Virus record (IMG/VR): IMGVR_UViG_3300047491_000380
Span: 1 to 25,723 of that record
Reading direction: 5' to 3' (one strand)
Length of the DNA: 25,723 nucleotides
Source: a virus
Shown: positions 2-22,690 of the stretch, piece by piece
How the letters are laid out: each line of letters starts with the position of its first letter
Position numbering within the stretch: the stretch's first letter is position 1
The notes under the pieces: generated by a model
What the model was told of the DNA's origin: nothing
The model's database searches: none
What the model saw: the letters and a program-made list of their open reading frames with translations, nothing else
Program-made: the position numbers and the translations under genes

Positions 2-373
2 TCTTATTTTATTCAGCAAAGAATTGTTAATACTTTTGGATTTAAAAATTATGGGATATCTCCAGTTGGAAAAGATGGTATAATAACAGAAGTTAGTTTT
101 GAGAATGGCACAGTTCATCCTCATATAGATCCAGAATGGTTTCCAAATACTTACACTGTACATTGCAATTTAATAACTCAAAAACCAGATAGTGGAGGTG
201 TTACCTATATTCAAGGATCACCTTGGGACATTAATGAAAATGATTTATTAATGTATATTGTATCAAAAGCAGAGCATAGTGTTAATAAGATTGTAGGAAA
301 AAAAGAAAGGGTTCTATGGGTCTTTAGTTTTATGCTTAATATTGAGGATATTAAAAACAATTTTTATGACTAA
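2..373 (+). CDS. 2OG-Fe(II) oxygenase, C-terminal part
   Basis: The reading frame is open from the left edge to a TAA at 371-373, so the N-terminus lies outside the window. The visible 123 residues contain HPHIDP, giving the H-x-D pair of the iron-binding facial triad, then AEHSVNKIVGKKER, which supplies the distal histidine and, 11 residues on, the arginine expected to bind 2-oxoglutarate, followed by a hydrophobic beta strand (VLWVFSFML). This matches the double-stranded beta-helix fold of Fe(II)/2-oxoglutarate dioxygenases, several of which are usual in cyanomyoviruses. The substrate cannot be read from the sequence. Its position beside sugar-nucleotide genes suggests hydroxylation of a sugar, lipid or protein in the same pathway (inference). 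The end overlaps the next start (ATGACTAA), so the genes are probably translationally coupled. Confidence 0.75.
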   Translation, partial: SYFIQQRIVNTFGFKNYGISPVGKDGIITEVSFENGTVHPHIDPEWFPNTYTVHCNLITQKPDSGGVTYIQGSPWDINENDLLMYIVSKAEHSVNKIVGKKERVLWVFSFMLNIEDIKNNFYD

Positions 374-776
374 AAAAATTTTTGTAAACGGAACTTTTGA
401 TCTTTTACATCGTGGACACTTAGAGTTATTAAATTATGCAAAATCTCTTGGTGATATTTTATATGTTGGTATTGATACTGATATAAGAGTAAAAGAAAAG
501 AAAGGAATTACAAGACCAATATATAATCAAGAAGAGAGAAAATTTTTTCTTGAGAATTTAAAGTCGGTTGATGAAGTTTATCTTTTTGATTCTGATAAAG
601 AATTGGAGCAGTTGATTAATAATATCAAACCTGATATAATGGTAGTTGGATCCGATTGGAAAGATAAATCTGTTATAGGATCAATGTATGCTTCTAAATT
701 AATATTTTTTGATCGAATAAGTGACTATGCAACGACAAGAACCATTCAAAATATTATTGATGGGGGAAACCTGTGA
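366..776 (+). CDS. ADP-heptose synthase-type adenylyltransferase (HldE C-domain/RfaE2-like)
   Basis: This 136-residue protein is a single nucleotidyltransferase domain of the cytidylyltransferase superfamily. GTFDLLHRGH (residues 9-18) contains the HxGH nucleotide-binding motif, and DYATTRTI near the C-terminus (from residue 120) resembles the S/TTR motif that contacts the triphosphate. Overall it is closest to the second half of HldE, which joins AMP to D-glycero-beta-D-manno-heptose 1-phosphate; a glycerol-3-phosphate cytidylyltransferase-like enzyme is the alternative. The ATG at 366 is chosen because it starts the fold directly (MTKKIFVNGTFD); an upstream in-frame ATG at 342 would add eight residues inside the previous gene. 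The C-terminus overlaps the kinase gene by 50 bases. With the kinase and the HldD-like epimerase nearby, a heptose-nucleotide pathway is the best reading. Confidence 0.8.
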   Translation: MTKKIFVNGTFDLLHRGHLELLNYAKSLGDILYVGIDTDIRVKEKKGITRPIYNQEERKFFLENLKSVDEVYLFDSDKELEQLINNIKPDIMVVGSDWKDKSVIGSMYASKLIFFDRISDYATTRTIQNIIDGGNL

Positions 777-1497
777 AGACATTTACTTATATGGGCAAGT
801 AAATCGAATTAGTCCAGAAGCACCTGTTCCTGTAGTTGAGTATCGACACGAAGAATATTTTTCTGGGATGGCATCCAATGTTAAAAAAAATTTACAAGCA
901 TTCGGATGTTTCGTTAATTTAATTACAAATAAAGAAGAGATAAAAAAGGTAAGAGTAGTCGATCAAGAATCAAATCATCAACTACTCAGAATTGACCACG
1001 ACACTAAAGTTAACCCAATTAAAAATGCTGAAGTTCGTGCGGCATTTTTACACTACACATATGATGCTATAGTTATTTCTGATTATAATAAAGGGTTTTT
1101 ATCAATTGATGATCTTAAATTGATATCACAAAATTTTAATGGTCCCGTTTTTATTGATACTAAAAAGAAAGATTTATATACTGAATCAAATACTTATTTT
1201 AAAATCAACCAGAAAGAATTCGATAGTTTAAAAACTAAACCAGATGATTCCCAACTTATTGTAACACTTGGATCGCAAGGTGCAATGTACGATAATAATG
1301 TTTATCCATCACAATCAGTAAATGTATATGATGTTGTTGGTGCTGGAGATGCTTTTCTTTCTGGATTAGTTTATGGATATTTAATATTTAATGATATGGG
1401 ATCTGCAATATCATTAGCAAATAAAGTTGCTTCTATTGTTGTGCAGCAACCAGGAACTTATTCATTAACTTCTGATGATATTGGGAGTTTACTATGA
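727..1497 (+). CDS. PfkB-family sugar kinase (HldE kinase-domain/RfaE1-like)
   Basis: This is a PfkB/ribokinase-family kinase of about 256 residues. The N-terminal strand FKILLMGETCEDIYLYG (residues 7-23) matches the first strand of HldE kinases. RISPEAPVPVVE follows, as in HldE, then SGMASNV for the substrate-binding GGAANV motif, VISDYNKG, and the C-terminal signature VVGAGDAFLSG with the presumed catalytic base D208. HldE kinase phosphorylates D-glycero-D-manno-heptose 7-phosphate at C1. The protein is shorter than the roughly 310-residue bacterial domain; the gap lies after the SGMASNV region. The ATG at 727 keeps the first strand; a GTG at 721 is also possible, and the ATG at 760 would delete the strand. 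The next gene starts inside the stop codon (ATGATGA). Confidence 0.8.
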   Translation: MQRQEPFKILLMGETCEDIYLYGQVNRISPEAPVPVVEYRHEEYFSGMASNVKKNLQAFGCFVNLITNKEEIKKVRVVDQESNHQLLRIDHDTKVNPIKNAEVRAAFLHYTYDAIVISDYNKGFLSIDDLKLISQNFNGPVFIDTKKKDLYTESNTYFKINQKEFDSLKTKPDDSQLIVTLGSQGAMYDNNVYPSQSVNVYDVVGAGDAFLSGLVYGYLIFNDMGSAISLANKVASIVVQQPGTYSLTSDDIGSLL

Positions 1498-2612
1498 TGA
1501 GGAAAAATAAATCTTCATTAGGAGTTCACGTTTCTCACGATGCCTCAGTTTGTCAATTGACTGATGGTAAAATTGATTGGTTTATTGAGGAAGAAAGATT
1601 AACCAGAACTAAGCATGATGAATTTCCTTATATGAGTCTTACACAATCTGATATTTCTGAAAATATTAGAAAAATTCAGATGTCTTCGTTATATGAACCT
1701 CACAACACTAAAGAAACAGAATTATTTTATAAAACTGCTACAATACTAGTAAAGAAAAATCTCAACAATAAGTATCAAAGTAAAGAATTTGTAAACGAAC
1801 TTGAGTATGAATCATTTACTCAACATCATGTTTTTCATGCAGCTTGTGGATTTTACAATTCTGGATTTACTAGATCTGCTGTTTTAGTTGTTGATGGTAT
1901 GGGTAATCCAGTAAATGATTTGGATGATTATAAAGATCTTCATGAGGTTGAGTCCATTTATAGTTGTTCATATCCAAATTTGTTTTATTTACATACTCAA
2001 AATTATACACCAACTTATCTTAGTGGAATGCAAAAGTATGATTTGACTTTTGGGATAGGGATGGTTTATAATGCATTATCTAATTACTTTGGATTTGGTG
2101 ATTTTGGATCTGGAAAATTAATGGGTTTATCTGCCTATGGAAAACCAGATAAAAAAATTAAACCTTTTTTAAATCCTGATGGGACTTTAGATACATCTTT
2201 GTTTTATAGAACCAGATATGGAATACGATTAATTCCATACAATTATATTAAGTATCCTGAATCCATCAAAAATTTTAATTCATTAGAACAAGACTCAAAA
2301 GAAGCACAAATTTTTTGCAATCTTGCATATAGACTCCAAGAAGATTTTGAGACTTATATGATCAATCTTATTAAAAAAACTTTGGAGATTACAGAAGAAA
2401 ATAATATTGTTTTGACTGGAGGATGTGCTTTGAATTGTGTTGCTAATTACAAATACCTTGAGCATTTGCCAAAGGGTGTAAAATTATATGTGGAACCAAT
2501 CTCAACAGATGCTGGAACTGCTATTGGTCTTGCAAAGTTAGATTATTATGCTGCTACTAAATCTACAACCAAACATCCATTAAAAACATTGTATTTGGGT
2601 CCAGAACGATGA
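1494..2612 (+). CDS. Carbamoyltransferase (NodU/CmcH family), N-terminal domain only
   Basis: The 372-residue product matches the Kae1-like N-terminal domain of NodU/CmcH/TobZ O-carbamoyltransferases: SLGVHVSHDASVC near the start, EEERLTRTKHDEFP, a histidine cluster (QHHVFHAACGFYNSGF), VVDGMGN, KLMGLSAYGKP and LTGGCALNCVAN followed by DAGTAIGLA. It ends at YLGPER, exactly where the family normally continues into a C-terminal YrdC-like domain of about 150-200 residues, which is absent. In characterised members that domain makes carbamoyl-adenylate and the Kae1-like domain transfers the carbamoyl group to a sugar hydroxyl. Here either a partner supplies the activated carbamoyl group or the activity is altered. 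The gene overlaps the kinase stop (ATGA) and a GGGAG ribosome site lies just upstream. Its likely role is decorating the sugar made by this cassette (inference). Confidence 0.82.
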   Translation: MMRKNKSSLGVHVSHDASVCQLTDGKIDWFIEEERLTRTKHDEFPYMSLTQSDISENIRKIQMSSLYEPHNTKETELFYKTATILVKKNLNNKYQSKEFVNELEYESFTQHHVFHAACGFYNSGFTRSAVLVVDGMGNPVNDLDDYKDLHEVESIYSCSYPNLFYLHTQNYTPTYLSGMQKYDLTFGIGMVYNALSNYFGFGDFGSGKLMGLSAYGKPDKKIKPFLNPDGTLDTSLFYRTRYGIRLIPYNYIKYPESIKNFNSLEQDSKEAQIFCNLAYRLQEDFETYMINLIKKTLEITEENNIVLTGGCALNCVANYKYLEHLPKGVKLYVEPISTDAGTAIGLAKLDYYAATKSTTKHPLKTLYLGPER

Positions 2613-2941
2613 AAACCTATTGTATAGACATTGATGGTACAATCTGCGATAAACCAGTTTGTAGAGGGGATTGTAACTATGAGACAAGCGTTGCAAAACC
2701 AGAAAGAATTGCAAAAATAAATCAGTTATATGACGAGGGTAATTACATCATATACCTAACTGCAAGAGGGATGGGTAGACATAAAAACTCTCGTATGCTC
2801 GCTTATAGAGATTTCTATGAGTTAACATTTAACCAATTGATCTCTTGGGGATGTAAGTTTCATGAACTGCATATGGGGAAACCTTCCGCCGACTACTACA
2901 TAGATGATAAAGGAATGAGCGACAATGAATTCTTCAATTAA
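2609..2941 (+). CDS. Small HAD-superfamily phosphatase
   Basis: This 110-residue protein has all four HAD motifs: DIDGT (nucleophile D7, acid/base D9), YLTAR (motif II, T51), GKPSADYY (motif III lysine K91) and the acidic pair D99-D100 (motif IV). It lacks a large cap domain, as in C0-type HAD enzymes. In a heptose pathway the missing phosphatase step would be GmhB, but GmhB is longer (about 190 residues) and has a zinc-binding loop that is not evident here, so assignment as a capsule/LPS-type sugar phosphatase is an inference from position. It starts in the carbamoyltransferase stop codon (ATGA overlap) and its own 3' end overlaps the cupin gene by 17 bases, pointing to one transcript. Confidence 0.78.
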   Translation: MKTYCIDIDGTICDKPVCRGDCNYETSVAKPERIAKINQLYDEGNYIIYLTARGMGRHKNSRMLAYRDFYELTFNQLISWGCKFHELHMGKPSADYYIDDKGMSDNEFFN

Positions 2942-3287
2942 ATACGTTCCCAAAGGTTGGGGATATGAAAAATGGATTGCTAACAGTGAAGAGTATTGTG
3001 GTAAATTACTCTTTATTTTAAAAGATAGAAGCTGCTCTTATCATTATCATAAACTAAAAGATGAAACCTTCTATGTTCAGTCTGGTGCTATTCGTCTTTA
3101 CTATGGTGTGAATGATGATTATGATAATGCTAATCACATAGTCCTTGTTAAAGGTGATAAATTTCACGTTCCTCGTGGAGTTCGACATCAAATGGTTGGA
3201 TTAGAAGATGCTGAGGTATTTGAGTTTTCAACTCAGCACTTTGATGAAGATAGTTATAGAATTATTGACGGTGACAAACTTAACTGA
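2925..3287 (+). CDS. Cupin-fold protein, sugar-epimerase/isomerase-like
   Basis: This 120-residue single-domain cupin has motif 1 as SYHYHKLKDETFYVQSG (metal ligands H40, H42, E47) and motif 2 as GDKFHVPRGVRHQM (H88). The N-terminal GWGYEKWIANSEEYCGKLL is typical of the small cupins, related to mannose-6-phosphate isomerase type II C-domains and WxcM-like sugar isomerases, that sit in polysaccharide clusters. A metal-dependent sugar isomerase or epimerase role is likely; the substrate is unknown. The start lies 17 bases inside the HAD gene, and the 3' end overlaps the second oxygenase gene. Confidence 0.75.
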   Translation: MNSSIKYVPKGWGYEKWIANSEEYCGKLLFILKDRSCSYHYHKLKDETFYVQSGAIRLYYGVNDDYDNANHIVLVKGDKFHVPRGVRHQMVGLEDAEVFEFSTQHFDEDSYRIIDGDKLN

Positions 3288-3843
3288 TTTAGTATGTGAA
3301 TTTGAGATCATACCAAAAGAATGGTGTGATGTAATGATCAAATGGTTTCATTTAAATGAAGATCTTCAGAAAGATGGTGCAGTTGATCAGAATAATACTG
3401 GTAAGGTTTTACTCGAATATAAAAAAGCAATCCAGTCAAATCCTTCTCCAGATGACCCAATGTTTGATTTGATTAGTGAAGCGTTTAAAAGATCTTATGA
3501 TGAATATCTAAAAATAGTTCCTGGACCGACAGAAAACGTTTGCTTTAAAGATTATTCCATTAGAATCTATCCTCAAAATGAGGGACATTTTTGTCAGCAT
3601 GTAGATCAATGTGCTGGCAGAACTGTTACTAGATTATTTGCAATGATTTTATATTTGAATGATGTTGATGAAGGTGGTGAGACAGAATTTCCATCTCACA
3701 ATATAAAAATTAAACCAAAGACTGGAAAGGTTTTAATATTTCCTTGTAATTATTTGTTTCCACATCAAGGAAATGTGCCAATATCTGGTCCAAAATATAT
3801 TGCTACTGCTTTTGTCAACTTTGTAGATATTCCTCAATGCTGA
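3244..3843 (+). CDS. 2OG-Fe(II) oxygenase, prolyl-4-hydroxylase-like
   Basis: With the chosen start this is a 199-residue protein whose C-terminal half is a P4Hc-type dioxygenase domain: FCQHVDQC gives ligands H119 and D121, LYLNDVDEGGETEFP is the typical central strand motif, LFPHQG gives the distal histidine H174, and SGPKYIATAF supplies the lysine (K184) that binds 2-oxoglutarate in prolyl hydroxylases. The start is uncertain: ATG 3244 is used, but GTG 3271 would also give a plausible protein with less overlap with the cupin gene, and ATG 3208 would add a 12-residue extension. Likely substrates are a protein residue or a sugar moiety made by the cassette; the sequence does not decide. Its last 29 bases overlap the end of the convergent epimerase gene. 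Confidence 0.75.
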   Translation: MKIVIELLTVTNLTDLVCEFEIIPKEWCDVMIKWFHLNEDLQKDGAVDQNNTGKVLLEYKKAIQSNPSPDDPMFDLISEAFKRSYDEYLKIVPGPTENVCFKDYSIRIYPQNEGHFCQHVDQCAGRTVTRLFAMILYLNDVDEGGETEFPSHNIKIKPKTGKVLIFPCNYLFPHQGNVPISGPKYIATAFVNFVDIPQC

Positions 3844-4609
3844 TGAAAGGATAATCCTGAATCCAGGACACATCTGCACAAGTATAGTTTTGATATTTAC
3901 CAACTAGATGCTCAGGGAAGGGGATGTAACGAATGTCTCCTCCCTCTTTTTTTGCAACACACTCTGCGACGTGTTGGAAAGATACTGGCTTACCTGTTCC
4001 GATGTCGTAGATACCACTTGGTTTATTGTTGTATAAAACTAACCTGGTCAAATCTTTTACACAAACAAAATCACGATATAACTGATCAGAACCCTCAAAG
4101 AGGTTTAGATATCCTTTCTCTCTGATTTGCCAGGTAAACTTACTGACAGGACTTGCCTGATCTTTTTTATGTTCTTCTCCATTACCATAAACATTAAAGT
4201 ACCTGAATCCCTGAATACTTTTAAACTTGTCTATGTTATCTTGTACCCAGTAATCCACCTGCAACTTTGAGATTGCATAGTAATTAAGTGGATTTACACT
4301 ACCATCAGTTTTGTTTCCATAAACAGATGCTGATGATGCATATTTGACTGGAATATTATACTCGATTGCTTTCTCAAATAACTTGATTGAGAAGTCAACA
4401 TTGTATGTGTGAATTTTGTTTATGTCTTTTTCTACCGTACTAGAGATTGCTCCTTGATGAACTATTAGGTGAACTCTTTCCCAATCCGTAAATTCTTCGA
4501 GGAATTTAAAGCAATGACTCATATCAACTTTATATACTTGCTGACTCCACAATGCATCTCTAACAAAATGCTGCCCGATAAATCCTTTATATCCAGTCAG
4601 AAGGATCAT
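3815..4609 (-). CDS. hldD: ADP-L-glycero-D-manno-heptose 6-epimerase-like (HldD family)
   Basis: This 264-residue short-chain dehydrogenase/reductase of the extended class has the Rossmann motif TGYKGFIGQ (G6, G9, G12), SSASVYG, the catalytic Y111-x-x-x-K115 (YAISK), RYFNVYG, LFEGSDQLYRDFVCVKD, GIYDIGTG and IPFPEHLVGKYQ with YTCAD. These blocks follow bacterial HldD/RfaD closely, including the IPFP..L.G.YQ segment, though the protein is about 45 residues shorter than the usual 310. HldD inverts C6 of ADP-heptose. The ATG at 4609 starts the Rossmann strand and has GGGG five bases upstream; a GTG at 4615 is the alternative. It is the only leftward gene of the cassette and converges on the oxygenase gene with a 29-base overlap. 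Function in the cassette is inferred from its pairing with the HldE-like halves. Confidence 0.85.
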   Translation of the reverse strand: MILLTGYKGFIGQHFVRDALWSQQVYKVDMSHCFKFLEEFTDWERVHLIVHQGAISSTVEKDINKIHTYNVDFSIKLFEKAIEYNIPVKYASSASVYGNKTDGSVNPLNYYAISKLQVDYWVQDNIDKFKSIQGFRYFNVYGNGEEHKKDQASPVSKFTWQIREKGYLNLFEGSDQLYRDFVCVKDLTRLVLYNNKPSGIYDIGTGKPVSFQHVAECVAKKEGGDIRYIPFPEHLVGKYQNYTCADVSWIQDYPFISIEEYLQS

Positions 4610-4642
4610 AACCACCCCAATGCTATACTATGTATTCTATCA

Positions 4643-4673: not shown

Positions 4674-6173
4674 GTGGCAATAGGAAGACTTGGATCACTA
4701 AAGACATCGAGTAGTGTTGGTATTAATACTTTTGCAATATTATATACGTCTCACGGTGATCTAACAAATGTAAGTATTAACGTAACCAATCAAGGTCTTG
4801 ATGATGCTCTGTTCAGTGTTGGCATTTGCACTGGTGGATTGTCTGGAATTAGGAATTCAGATTATATTGTTGTTGGAAAACGTATAAAACCAAAACAACA
4901 CTCTACAATTACAAACGTAGGTGTCTCTAGCAGTCAATCTATATTTTGTTCATCATCAAAATCTGATATTGGATTTATTGCATATGGGGTTCAGGAGTAC
5001 AGGCAGGGTGTTGCGACACGTTATGGAAAAGAAAATTCTTTAAGATTATCTTTGAGTGAACCTCAAATTAATACTCCATTATCAATTTTTACATCATCTA
5101 GAAAGTCTTTAGTTACGTTAGTTGTAACAAATAATCATTTATCAGATACTGGAATTTTTTCGGTTGGTATTTCATCTGGTGGAGTGACCGAATTCTCTTC
5201 CTCAGATTATATAATCTTTGGAAAATCAATAGGAAAAAATGAAACTTATTTCATTGAAAAAATAGGATTAGGTATTAATCAAAGTTTAATTATTAGAGGA
5301 TCAATTAAAGACTTAGTTTTTAACGCATATTCTTTACCAGCAGATCCAACCGAAGATGCCTTCCCAAGTGAAATATCTGTCAGTGTTGCTACAACGATAA
5401 CTGCATACGGGCAACAAACAGATACTTATGGTTTCTATGGAAATCTTGTAGGAAATGTTTCTGGTAACGTCATTGGGTTAGCTCACACTGGAAATCTTAC
5501 AGGCAATGTAAACTCTTCTGGAGTTTCTACTTTTAGTGGGGGAATACTTGGTAATGTTACTGGTAATCTTACTGGTAATGTTACTGGTAATATTAATTCA
5601 GTTGGTTTAAACACTATTTTTACGGTAAATGTTACTCAAATAAATTCTACAAATTTAAATGTTTCTGGTGTTTCTACTCTTACTGGAAATGTAACAATTG
5701 GTTCAGCATCCAGTATTACAGTTGGAGATACATTTATAAAAAAAGGTGCAATTGGTTTAGGAACCACAACCACAGCAGGACTTAATGCTGGTGTTGGAAC
5801 TGCATCTGGAACAATGGTGTATAATAGTACTGATAATATTGTAGAATATTATAATGGAATATCTTGGGTTTCATCTGGAAACTTTAGTGATATTGATATC
5901 ACAGGAAATGCTAATGTATTATCTTGGCAAAGATTGTGGATAGATACTACACTGACTGCTATTACATTAACTTTACCTGCAGCACCTTATAAAGGAGACA
6001 CAATTAAATTTTTTGATCTTGCTAATACCTTTAATACTAATAACTTGACCATTGATCGTAATGGTCAAAAAATTCAGGGAGATTCTGATAATATGACAGT
6101 CGATATTCAGGGAGCTGCATTTGAATTAGTCTATTCTGGATCAACTTACGGGTGGAAGGTATTTACTGTATAA
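4674..6173 (+). CDS. Fibre-like virion structural protein with internal duplication and GNVTG repeats
   Basis: This 499-residue protein is not assignable to a named T4 gene but looks like a cyanophage tail-fibre/appendage protein. Residues about 18-108 and 133-222 form a tandem duplication: both copies share TNVSINVTNQ/VTLVVTNN, FSVGI..GG, SDYI..GK and a closing FxAY block. Residues about 255-310 are low-complexity GN(V/L)(T/S)G repeats. The C-terminal 100 residues (WQRLWIDTTLTAITLTLP, GDTIKFFDLA, DRNGQKIQG, FELVYSG) resemble the C-terminal domains of other marine phage fibre-like proteins. The start is GTG at 4674. No transmembrane segment or enzyme motif is visible. A role in the virion surface is supported by composition and the late-promoter-like motif. 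It directly follows the sugar cassette, so it could be a target of glycan modification (inference). Confidence 0.65.
   Translation: MAIGRLGSLKTSSSVGINTFAILYTSHGDLTNVSINVTNQGLDDALFSVGICTGGLSGIRNSDYIVVGKRIKPKQHSTITNVGVSSSQSIFCSSSKSDIGFIAYGVQEYRQGVATRYGKENSLRLSLSEPQINTPLSIFTSSRKSLVTLVVTNNHLSDTGIFSVGISSGGVTEFSSSDYIIFGKSIGKNETYFIEKIGLGINQSLIIRGSIKDLVFNAYSLPADPTEDAFPSEISVSVATTITAYGQQTDTYGFYGNLVGNVSGNVIGLAHTGNLTGNVNSSGVSTFSGGILGNVTGNLTGNVTGNINSVGLNTIFTVNVTQINSTNLNVSGVSTLTGNVTIGSASSITVGDTFIKKGAIGLGTTTTAGLNAGVGTASGTMVYNSTDNIVEYYNGISWVSSGNFSDIDITGNANVLSWQRLWIDTTLTAITLTLPAAPYKGDTIKFFDLANTFNTNNLTIDRNGQKIQGDSDNMTVDIQGAAFELVYSGSTYGWKVFTV
4725..5340 (+). repeat. Tandem domain duplication within the fibre-like gene
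   Basis: The protein segment from about 4725-4995 is repeated in diverged form at about 5070-5340. Shared landmarks in order are a TN-x-S/L-x-x-x-V-T-N strand, FSVGI(C/S)(T/S)GG, SSDYI(V/I)xGK, a long beta segment with S(Q)S(I/L)I, and F(I/N)AY. The nucleotide sequences have diverged, so the duplication is old. Confidence 0.65.
5436..5605 (+). repeat. GN(V/L)(T/S)G-coding low-complexity repeats
   Basis: Near-identical 15-base units of the type ggtaatgttactggtaat recur, densest at 5550-5594, and encode the repeated GNVTG/GNLTG pentapeptide. Such repeats are common in cyanophage fibre-like proteins and can change copy number by slippage or recombination. Confidence 0.7.
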
Positions 6174-20836: not shown

Positions 20837-22690
20837 ATGGCAATTGTATCAGGATTTACAAAATCAACTGAAGATTTACTACAACAAACTTCGGCAATTA
20901 AGTCTAGTATTTTTGCCACAAAGAAATCTTTCAGCAAAATTAACAAAGTTTTTGAGCGTCGTACTAAAATTAGATCTGAAATTTTTAGAAATAGACAGTT
21001 AGTTAATACTAGAAAAATAGAGGCTCTAAACAGAAAAGAACAAAGAGAAGCACTTGAAGCAGCAAGATTGACAATAAGAAGACCTGGAGCAGCAAGATCT
21101 AGATTAAGTGCTCCTGGAAAGGGATTCTTGGGAAGAATCATGGATTTTATTGGTAGTTTAGCAATTGGTTGGATTTTATCTAATTTACCAACCTGGATAA
21201 AGTGGGGACAAATGTTTTATGCTAGAATGGAATCTTTGTGGACTTCTTTGAGTAATTTTGTAGGAGCAGCTTATCGAGCAGTTGTATCTTTTGGGGATAC
21301 AATAAAAAATGTTTCGATGCAAATTGCAGATTTTAATTTTGCTGCGCTTCCAGGAGAAGTTCAGAAAGGAATGAATGAACTCGAAAAACAATTTGGTTTG
21401 ATGTCTGCAGAATTTGAGAAAGGATTTGGTCTTTTTGATGATTTAAAACTCGAAGATGTAACTCCTCAAGAAACAGCAGAACAAACGCCACAAGAACAAA
21501 GTGGTGCAGCACTTCCCCCATCGTATATGGGACCATCTATGACTGCGACTGGTGGATCAAAAGCTTCTCCTTACATTTATTCTGGTTATGGTCCTAGAAC
21601 AAGACCAACTGCAGGTGCTTCTACTAATCATGGTGGTGTTGATATCTCTGGAGGTCCTTGGCAAGCAGGAACTCCAATATCAGTTATTAAACCTGGAACA
21701 GTTGTCGAAACTAAAGATTTGGGAAAAAGCGGTTGGGGAAAATATGTTGTCATTAAACACGATGATGGAACTTATAGTTTGTATGGGCATTTAAGTCAAA
21801 TTAATGTTAGTCAAGGAACAAGAATTAAGAATGAATCTGGCGCAGCAACTGTAATTGGAAAGGTTGGAAGCACTGGAGTCTCAACTGGGCCTCACTTACA
21901 CTTTGAGTTGGGAAGCGGTTGGAATGGAACTATTACTGGTAAAGTTAATCCTGCATCACAAATTGACAATTATGTAAGAGGTGGTGGAAATGTTAAAGTT
22001 ACTCAAACATCACAACCAGCAACAATTGCAAATCCAACTCCACAACAAACATTGATGGGTCAACCAGCACCTTCTGGGGGGACATTATCAACTGCACAAT
22101 TAGTTTCGCTTGCAAAACAAGTTGGTATGACTAAACAAGTTAATGTTACAGGATATAGTGGTCCTTTGGATGTTCTTATGGGTGCAGTTGCTATGCAAGA
22201 ATCTCGTGGAAAATCCACATCTATGAGATCTGATACTGAAGTGTATGGTCTTTGGCAAATTCGTTGGCCAGTTCATGCTGCTAACTTGAGAAAGATTGGA
22301 ATAACATCCCCACAACAGTTATATGATCCTTTATTAAACGCAAAAGCAGCGAAGATGATTTATGAAAGTCAAGGAATATCTGCTTGGTCTGGTTTTACTG
22401 ATGGTAACTATAAAAAGTTCTTACCAGAAGCGCAAAGAGCAGCAGGAGTTGCACCAGGACAGTTTACTGCTATGCAACAGCAAAATATTCCTGGATCAAT
22501 TACTCCATCAAATGAAGGTGAAGTTGTTTTTGCAGAATTTCCAGCATCTGGCGCGGCAGTTCCACCAGGTTACGGTGGCGGTGGGGGAGGAGGAGTATCT
22601 GTAATTCCTTCAGGATCTGCAAAGAGTGAATCAGAACTGTTAAATACTTTTATCAAAAATAGACTTTTAGTAGAACTCTCATATCTCTGA
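20837..22690 (+). CDS. Hub-associated bifunctional murein hydrolase (LytM/M23 plus transglycosylase-like)
   Basis: This 617-residue protein has a helical N-terminus (residues 1-200) with one hydrophobic segment (FIGSLAIGWILSNLPTWIKW). A LytM/M23 metallopeptidase domain (about 240-375) shows NHGGVDISG (zinc ligands H and D near 265-269), YGHLS and GPHLHFELG (H353 and H355). A third domain (about 425-550) has the lytic-transglycosylase pattern GAVAMQESRGKSTS (catalytic Glu about 455) followed by YGLWQIRW and AAKMIYESQG. Both activities would cut peptidoglycan during DNA injection. A Gly-rich tail carries a second SGAAVPPG motif (571-578). The ATG at 20837 starts one base after the previous stop; the gene ends in a TGATG overlap with gp27. 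T4 places its lysozyme in gp5 instead. Confidence 0.82.
   Translation: MAIVSGFTKSTEDLLQQTSAIKSSIFATKKSFSKINKVFERRTKIRSEIFRNRQLVNTRKIEALNRKEQREALEAARLTIRRPGAARSRLSAPGKGFLGRIMDFIGSLAIGWILSNLPTWIKWGQMFYARMESLWTSLSNFVGAAYRAVVSFGDTIKNVSMQIADFNFAALPGEVQKGMNELEKQFGLMSAEFEKGFGLFDDLKLEDVTPQETAEQTPQEQSGAALPPSYMGPSMTATGGSKASPYIYSGYGPRTRPTAGASTNHGGVDISGGPWQAGTPISVIKPGTVVETKDLGKSGWGKYVVIKHDDGTYSLYGHLSQINVSQGTRIKNESGAATVIGKVGSTGVSTGPHLHFELGSGWNGTITGKVNPASQIDNYVRGGGNVKVTQTSQPATIANPTPQQTLMGQPAPSGGTLSTAQLVSLAKQVGMTKQVNVTGYSGPLDVLMGAVAMQESRGKSTSMRSDTEVYGLWQIRWPVHAANLRKIGITSPQQLYDPLLNAKAAKMIYESQGISAWSGFTDGNYKKFLPEAQRAAGVAPGQFTAMQQQNIPGSITPSNEGEVVFAEFPASGAAVPPGYGGGGGGGVSVIPSGSAKSESELLNTFIKNRLLVELSYL

Follow-up and report, generated by a model that had tools for sequence, protein, structure and literature searches.

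The 25.7-kb IMG/VR virus fragment IMGVR_UViG_3300047491_000380, analyzed here over its whole length of 25,723 nucleotides and called the window below, carries at its 5' end a gene cassette that, in our judgment, probably makes an activated heptose from the sedoheptulose-7-phosphate of the infected cell and attaches it to a target. Its five core genes would match the five steps to ADP-L,D-heptose, two of them via unrelated proteins, a cupin and a HAD phosphatase. More tentatively, we propose that the cupin belongs to a new, nonorthologous class of sedoheptulose-7-phosphate isomerases in cyanophages and Patescibacteria, and that the phage possesses a self-contained pathway for a carbamoylated, hydroxylated, or halogenated heptose destined for its own tail fibers through a GT9-like transferase, T4-GC302. 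The source is a T4-like cyanomyovirus; the top nucleotide matches of the window are Synechococcus and Prochlorococcus myoviruses at ~71–78% identity, and the genes 3' of the cassette (fiber, glutaredoxin, thyX, phoH, and ssDNA-binding protein) are ordered as in P-SSM2. The initial annotation of this DNA had recognized a cyanophage cassette for a heptose-type nucleotide sugar, and this is well supported, heptose models being the top matches for three genes; the positions of its overlapping open reading frames (ORFs) are likewise confirmed from the ORFs and family models. The overlaps are of a few bases and operon-like, and an inverted epimerase gene closes the cassette.

Under the proposed scheme, the cupin would convert sedoheptulose-7-phosphate to D-glycero-D-manno-heptose-7-phosphate in the place of GmhA, the PfkB kinase would phosphorylate this to the 1,7-bisphosphate, and the small HAD protein, standing in for GmhB, would take off the 7-phosphate; the nucleotidyltransferase would then turn heptose-1-phosphate into ADP-heptose, and the HldD-type enzyme would epimerize it at C6 to ADP-L,D-heptose. 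Transfer would fall to the upstream T4-GC302 as a GT9-type heptosyltransferase, and carbamoyltransferases, 2-oxoglutarate (2OG) oxygenases, a halogenase, and a methylase may decorate the sugar or its acceptor. The scheme shares with the ADP-heptose pathway its five steps and a homologous kinase, nucleotidyltransferase, and epimerase, but differs from it in the split of the phage HldE and in the presumed use of a cupin for GmhA and a small HAD for GmhB.

Searches against NCBIfam placed a heptose family at the top for each of the three Hld-type proteins. The HldE C-half-like sugar-1-phosphate nucleotidyltransferase (positions 366–776, plus strand; 136 aa; T4-GC304; phrog_7878) matches TIGR02199 with 112 bits (curated cut-off 181.5), the next model outside HldE, glycerol-3-phosphate cytidylyltransferase, reaching 72; it retains HRGH, an HxGH-type motif, and we infer that it would use ATP, giving ADP-heptose. 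For the HldE N-half-like PfkB kinase (727–1497, plus strand; 256 aa; T4-GC305), TIGR02198 comes first with 141 bits (curated cut-off 345) and the bifunctional HldE model second; the closest PDB structure is the heptose-7-phosphate kinase 4e84, and the HldE-type N-terminal motif RISPEAPVPV, the motif SDYNKG, and the PfkB catalytic motif GAGD are all retained. The epimerase (T4-GC308) matches TIGR02197 with 205 bits (curated cut-off 275), against 39 for the next non-HldD family; its top PDB match is 1eq2 (E 1e-38), and its Y113 and K150 correspond to the catalytic Y140 and K178 of Escherichia coli HldD. Its earlier identification as an HldD-type epimerase, which we specify as an ADP-heptose 6-epimerase, thus stands, with the correction that the gene lies on the minus strand (3815–4615, the start probably being the ATG at 4609).

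The initial annotation listed GmhA among the missing steps. A GmhA-type (SIS_2) isomerase was indeed found in none of six complete cassette phages, the control search being positive in 14 of 14 genomes, but the isomerase is probably present in the form of the cupin (2925–3287, plus strand; 120 aa; T4-GC307), with a predicted sedoheptulose-7-phosphate isomerase activity. The protein has a metal site of the form HxH...E...H with a lysine near the metal-binding glutamate; residues H40, H42, K45, E47, and H88 are invariant in 30 aligned relatives and match the ligands H75, H77, E88, and H143 of the Thermofilum D-lyxose isomerase (TsLI), as well as its K86. In fold the protein comes nearest to cupin D-lyxose isomerases, but decarboxylases, CapF, and KdgF score almost as highly, and because these other cupins follow so closely, fold alone cannot decide the class. 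The cupin D-lyxose, D-mannose, and phosphomannose isomerases thus resemble the phage protein in fold, metal ligands, neighboring lysine, and C1/C2 chemistry yielding a manno aldose; the phage protein is set apart by a predicted C7 sugar-phosphate substrate, its length of only 120 aa, and its link to an HldE kinase. Among the papers covered by a literature search, none bore on a cupin acting as a heptose-phosphate isomerase. The record label "cysteine dioxygenase" was rejected, as Pfam and NCBIfam gave no match to that family and only generic cupin models, and cluster c23 of S-SM2, considered as a GmhA, was dismissed for having no Pfam match.

A stronger argument than fold for the isomerase role comes from the genomic pattern in Patescibacteria, where GmhA is displaced by the cupin in bacterial operons. 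The HldE kinase occurs in 17 of 287 genomes; 12 of these have GmhA, and the remaining five are exactly those in which this cupin is fused to the kinase or lies beside it. A second sample of 353 genomes held 10 cupin–kinase fusions; 11 kinases were linked to GmhA, and the two groups did not overlap. In whole-genome searches, 12 of 13 cupin-linked genomes lacked GmhA, and 24 of the 25 other genomes with HldE had it (Fisher test, 6e-8, with no correction for phylogeny). The replacement can be followed gene by gene: one operon (G017) reads cupin–kinase–GmhB–HldE-C where its sister operons read GmhA–kinase–GmhB–HldE-C; another genome (G131) has a GmhA–kinase fusion with GmhA at the position held by the cupin in G173 and G195; and in G225 the cupin is fused to the other end of the kinase. 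The GmhA-less G173 and G225 are single contigs of about whole-assembly size. Phage and HldE-linked cupins fall in one clade (support 100/100), separate from phosphomannose isomerase-like cupins; similar proteins of the latter kind were set aside as lying outside this clade, and the distant cupins of G039 and G224 are encoded far from the kinases of these genomes. Some members of the clade itself belong to genomes that yielded no HldE. Heptose-enzyme fusions are varied in Patescibacteria and include GmhB–HldE-C and GmhA–kinase forms (L119:4156-5529, L120:1620-2687, and L124:3136-4746). A close cupin relative also lies beside DegT aminotransferase and radical SAM genes in a Prochlorococcus single-cell genome (L016:7992-8339) in which no HldE was found, and the cupin clade may thus have other roles.

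The small capless HAD phosphatase (2609–2941, plus strand; 110 aa; T4-GC306) carries the HAD motifs DxDGT, TAR, K, and DD. It matches no GmhB model in NCBIfam, in keeping with the earlier statement that a typical GmhB was missing, but it probably fills the phosphatase role of the third step and so replaces GmhB. In the related records examined, the name "phosphoheptose isomerase" sits on this gene, and the announcement of SynMITS9220M01 lists a "phosphoheptose isomerase" among its heptose genes (PMC7378029); we rejected the name for the HAD gene, the protein being a HAD and the six complete phages having no SIS protein. Misleading RefSeq and PHROG labels affect both the HAD and the cupin genes of the window and recur in five related loci (L003-L007).

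In 34 related loci, the gene directly upstream of the cassette is T4-GC302. Its sole relevant Pfam match, PF01075 (Glyco_transf_9), is weak at best and above cut-off in S-CAM1 only; in three complete phages, the match is confined to this gene. An AlphaFold model built from 22 sequences (predicted local distance difference test score, pLDDT, 82) has GT9 enzymes as all 30 of its top 30 PDB matches (E 5e-10 to 8e-7), among them a Veillonella GT9, WaaF, TibC with ADP-heptose, and WaaC. By computation, the modeled protein is shown to have a GT9 fold and to be heptosyltransferase-like; its candidacy as a fiber protein is rejected by that fold. With TibC-type protein heptosyltransferases and WaaC/WaaF, it shares the GT9 fold and a C-terminal DSxGQHxA motif, but its identity to them is 10–13% and it adjoins phage tail-fiber genes. 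For the glycosyltransferase that the initial annotation reported missing, relatives offer a candidate, the heptosyltransferase-like gene upstream, at a place past the end of the contig.

The wider neighborhood was surveyed in ~90 virus loci, 56 of them with enough flank. The recurrent order is nucleotidyltransferase, kinase, a variable slot, HAD, cupin, an optional 2OG oxygenase, and the inverted HldD, and 37 of the 56 loci hold all five core families inside 8 kb, a clustering far beyond chance. The cassette occurs in two settings. In one, which is that of the window and recurs with exactly the same layout in L030 and L042, the cassette has tail-fiber-like genes on one side and a fiber gene or the gp13 neck gene on the other, and T4-GC302 and a full-length carbamoyltransferase lie upstream. 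In the other, it is part of a polysaccharide cluster that includes several glycosyltransferases. The two kinds of transferase did not occur together in any locus retrieved, T4-GC302 being found in 34 loci, other glycosyltransferase clusters in 20, and both in none. Cassette genes are also present in P-SSM2, P-SSM5, S-SSM7, S-SM2, S-CAM1, S-CAM3, P-TIM68, and Sf-FS3, and the comparison with cyanophage genomes proposed in the initial annotation shows most of the cassette to be common to P-SSM2, S-SM2, and S-SSM7. The gene set itself is therefore already known: Sullivan et al. 2010 reported that T4-GCs 304, 305, 307, and 308 co-occur, posed the question of whether they serve a function or are "stuffer DNA", and described functionally linked lipopolysaccharide (LPS) genes of unknown function (PMC3037559). 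Our cassette has orthologs of these "LPS" genes and shares with P-SSM2 the gene order, the inverted epimerase, and the tail fiber and glutaredoxin genes that follow; what is new is the isomerase and transferase assignments, the earlier work giving no pathway or acceptor and ours adding the steps, corrected labels, the GT9 enzyme, and the slot enzymes. Phage-type cassettes were also seen in contigs binned as Euryarchaeota or Planctomycetaceae (L008, L009, L010, and L020), which are probably misbinned virus.

Besides the close fold scores of other cupins and the lack of a GmhB match, several observations weigh against the proposed pathway. All three Hld-type proteins score under the curated cut-offs, which makes them divergent relatives of the heptose enzymes. 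The kinase is ~55 aa shorter than bacterial HldE-type kinases, a shortening common to the cyanophage family. Comparison with PDB structures, the kind of search named in the initial annotation as able to refute its reading, favors the heptose assignment for the kinase but is ambiguous for the nucleotidyltransferase, whose top PDB match is a CTP enzyme. An HldD-type epimerase, the only core family missing there, has no nearby copy in 13 of the 56 loci; one cupin-fusion genome also carries a distant SIS protein; and close cupin relatives occur in G001, G003, G005, and G138, genomes (some of them partial) that yielded no HldE kinase. Finally, the position of T4-GC302 lies outside the window, which ends before it, and the gene is therefore only predicted for the source phage, from its presence in L030 and L042.

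The low scores, the short kinase, and the CTP-type match would all suit a related but different sugar, perhaps a heptose or octose carried by CDP or a dNDP, with a homology to HldE and HldD at the level of fold only; we regard this as quite improbable, however, as the Tyr/Lys pair of HldD, the HldE motif of the kinase, and the GT9 transferase all point toward ADP-heptose. It also seems unlikely, given that of 201 genomes in the host-type family just 42 have a GmhA-like protein, that heptose-7-phosphate is supplied by the GmhA of the host and that the cupin acts instead on another sugar intermediate, as an epimerase or ketoisomerase, or has a regulatory function. Cupin functions are diverse, fold scores separate the classes poorly, and relatives without HldE exist, but the complementarity of cupin and GmhA in Patescibacteria and the fusions to the kinase would have no simple account under this alternative. 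Least of all do we believe that the cassette is genomic filler (the "stuffer DNA" of Sullivan et al. 2010) or decaying host DNA with no function in infection: although it is carried by large-genome phages (PMC3037559), its frames are intact and overlapping, active-site residues are retained, and the order is constant across very diverged phages.

As for the acceptor, our analysis points most likely to a tail-fiber or other virion protein, modified in a TibC-like manner, and to a host surface glycan in the second place. TibC heptosylates an adhesin, and a virion protein is accordingly a plausible acceptor for T4-GC302; the candidate is the tail-fiber-like protein encoded next to the cassette (4674–6173, plus strand; phrog tail fiber matches), whose family adjoins the cassette in 21 loci. 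The same pathway could instead deliver its product to host LPS or exopolysaccharide, bringing about superinfection exclusion or receptor masking, and with WaaC and WaaF, both GT9 enzymes, acting on LPS, the core standing among glycosyltransferase genes in S-SM2, P-TIM68, and about 20 loci, and a surface change proposed by earlier authors (PMC2984593), we treat this as a serious though rather unlikely alternative. In the tail-fiber context of the window, however, no other glycosyltransferase or carrier gene was seen and virion genes flank the cassette on both sides, and the reported LPS of marine Synechococcus contains no heptose (PMC4515613). Of the LPS remodeling raised in the initial annotation, ordinary modification of the LPS core is for the latter reason less likely, and a phage-specific glycan, on the fiber or new on the host surface, fits better; DNA modification, raised there too, was rejected, the window holding no gene in its support.

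Were the heptose pathway correct, the "LPS gene" label, in use for 20 years for these genes of abundant ocean viruses, would give way to a stepwise, testable pathway with a concrete route to sugar-decorated phage fibers. It predicts that heptose synthesis involves an enzyme class missing so far, and it corrects two widespread annotations. Cyanophage transaldolase is known to affect the pool of sedoheptulose-7-phosphate, and it is this pool that the pathway would use.

The tailoring genes vary across loci, the slot holding a short carbamoyltransferase, a 2OG oxygenase, or a methyltransferase. In the window, the slot is filled by a carbamoyltransferase (1494–2612, plus strand; 372 aa), whose identification in the initial annotation is upheld by PF02543 (91 bits) but narrowed to the N-terminal Kae1-like domain, the C-terminal YrdC-like domain PF16861 being absent. 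TobZ is its top PDB match, and the HHxxHAA and VDG motifs, with their His and Asp, are retained; it is thus like the NodU/TobZ O-carbamoyltransferases in the Kae1-like domain and conserved motifs but unlike them in its missing C-terminal domain and in the full-length paralog that relatives add. Such a full-length copy lies near the short type in all relatives with enough sequence, and the short enzyme perhaps borrows carbamoyl-adenylate from it. Short carbamoyltransferases were also seen in L002, L003, L011, L030, L032, L042, and L073.

Of the two 2OG oxygenases claimed earlier, one holds: the ORF at 3208–3843 (plus strand; start codon uncertain, at 3208, 3244, or 3268) matches PF13640 with 49 bits. 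The other, the 5'-cut ORF at 2–373 (plus strand), possibly a 2OG oxygenase, shows an HxD...H motif by eye but no Pfam support, and neither it nor its full-length relatives matched any family in the profile search. L030 and L042 also carry a member of this family ahead of the adenylyltransferase gene. A relative of tryptophan halogenases (PF04820, 298 bits) often stands before the nucleotidyltransferase, and such genes were found in or beside the cassette at L030:3317-4834, L042:3323-4837, and 17 more loci. Far downstream, a large tail protein (20837-22690) contains M23 peptidase-like and lytic-transglycosylase-like segments, both recognized by eye.

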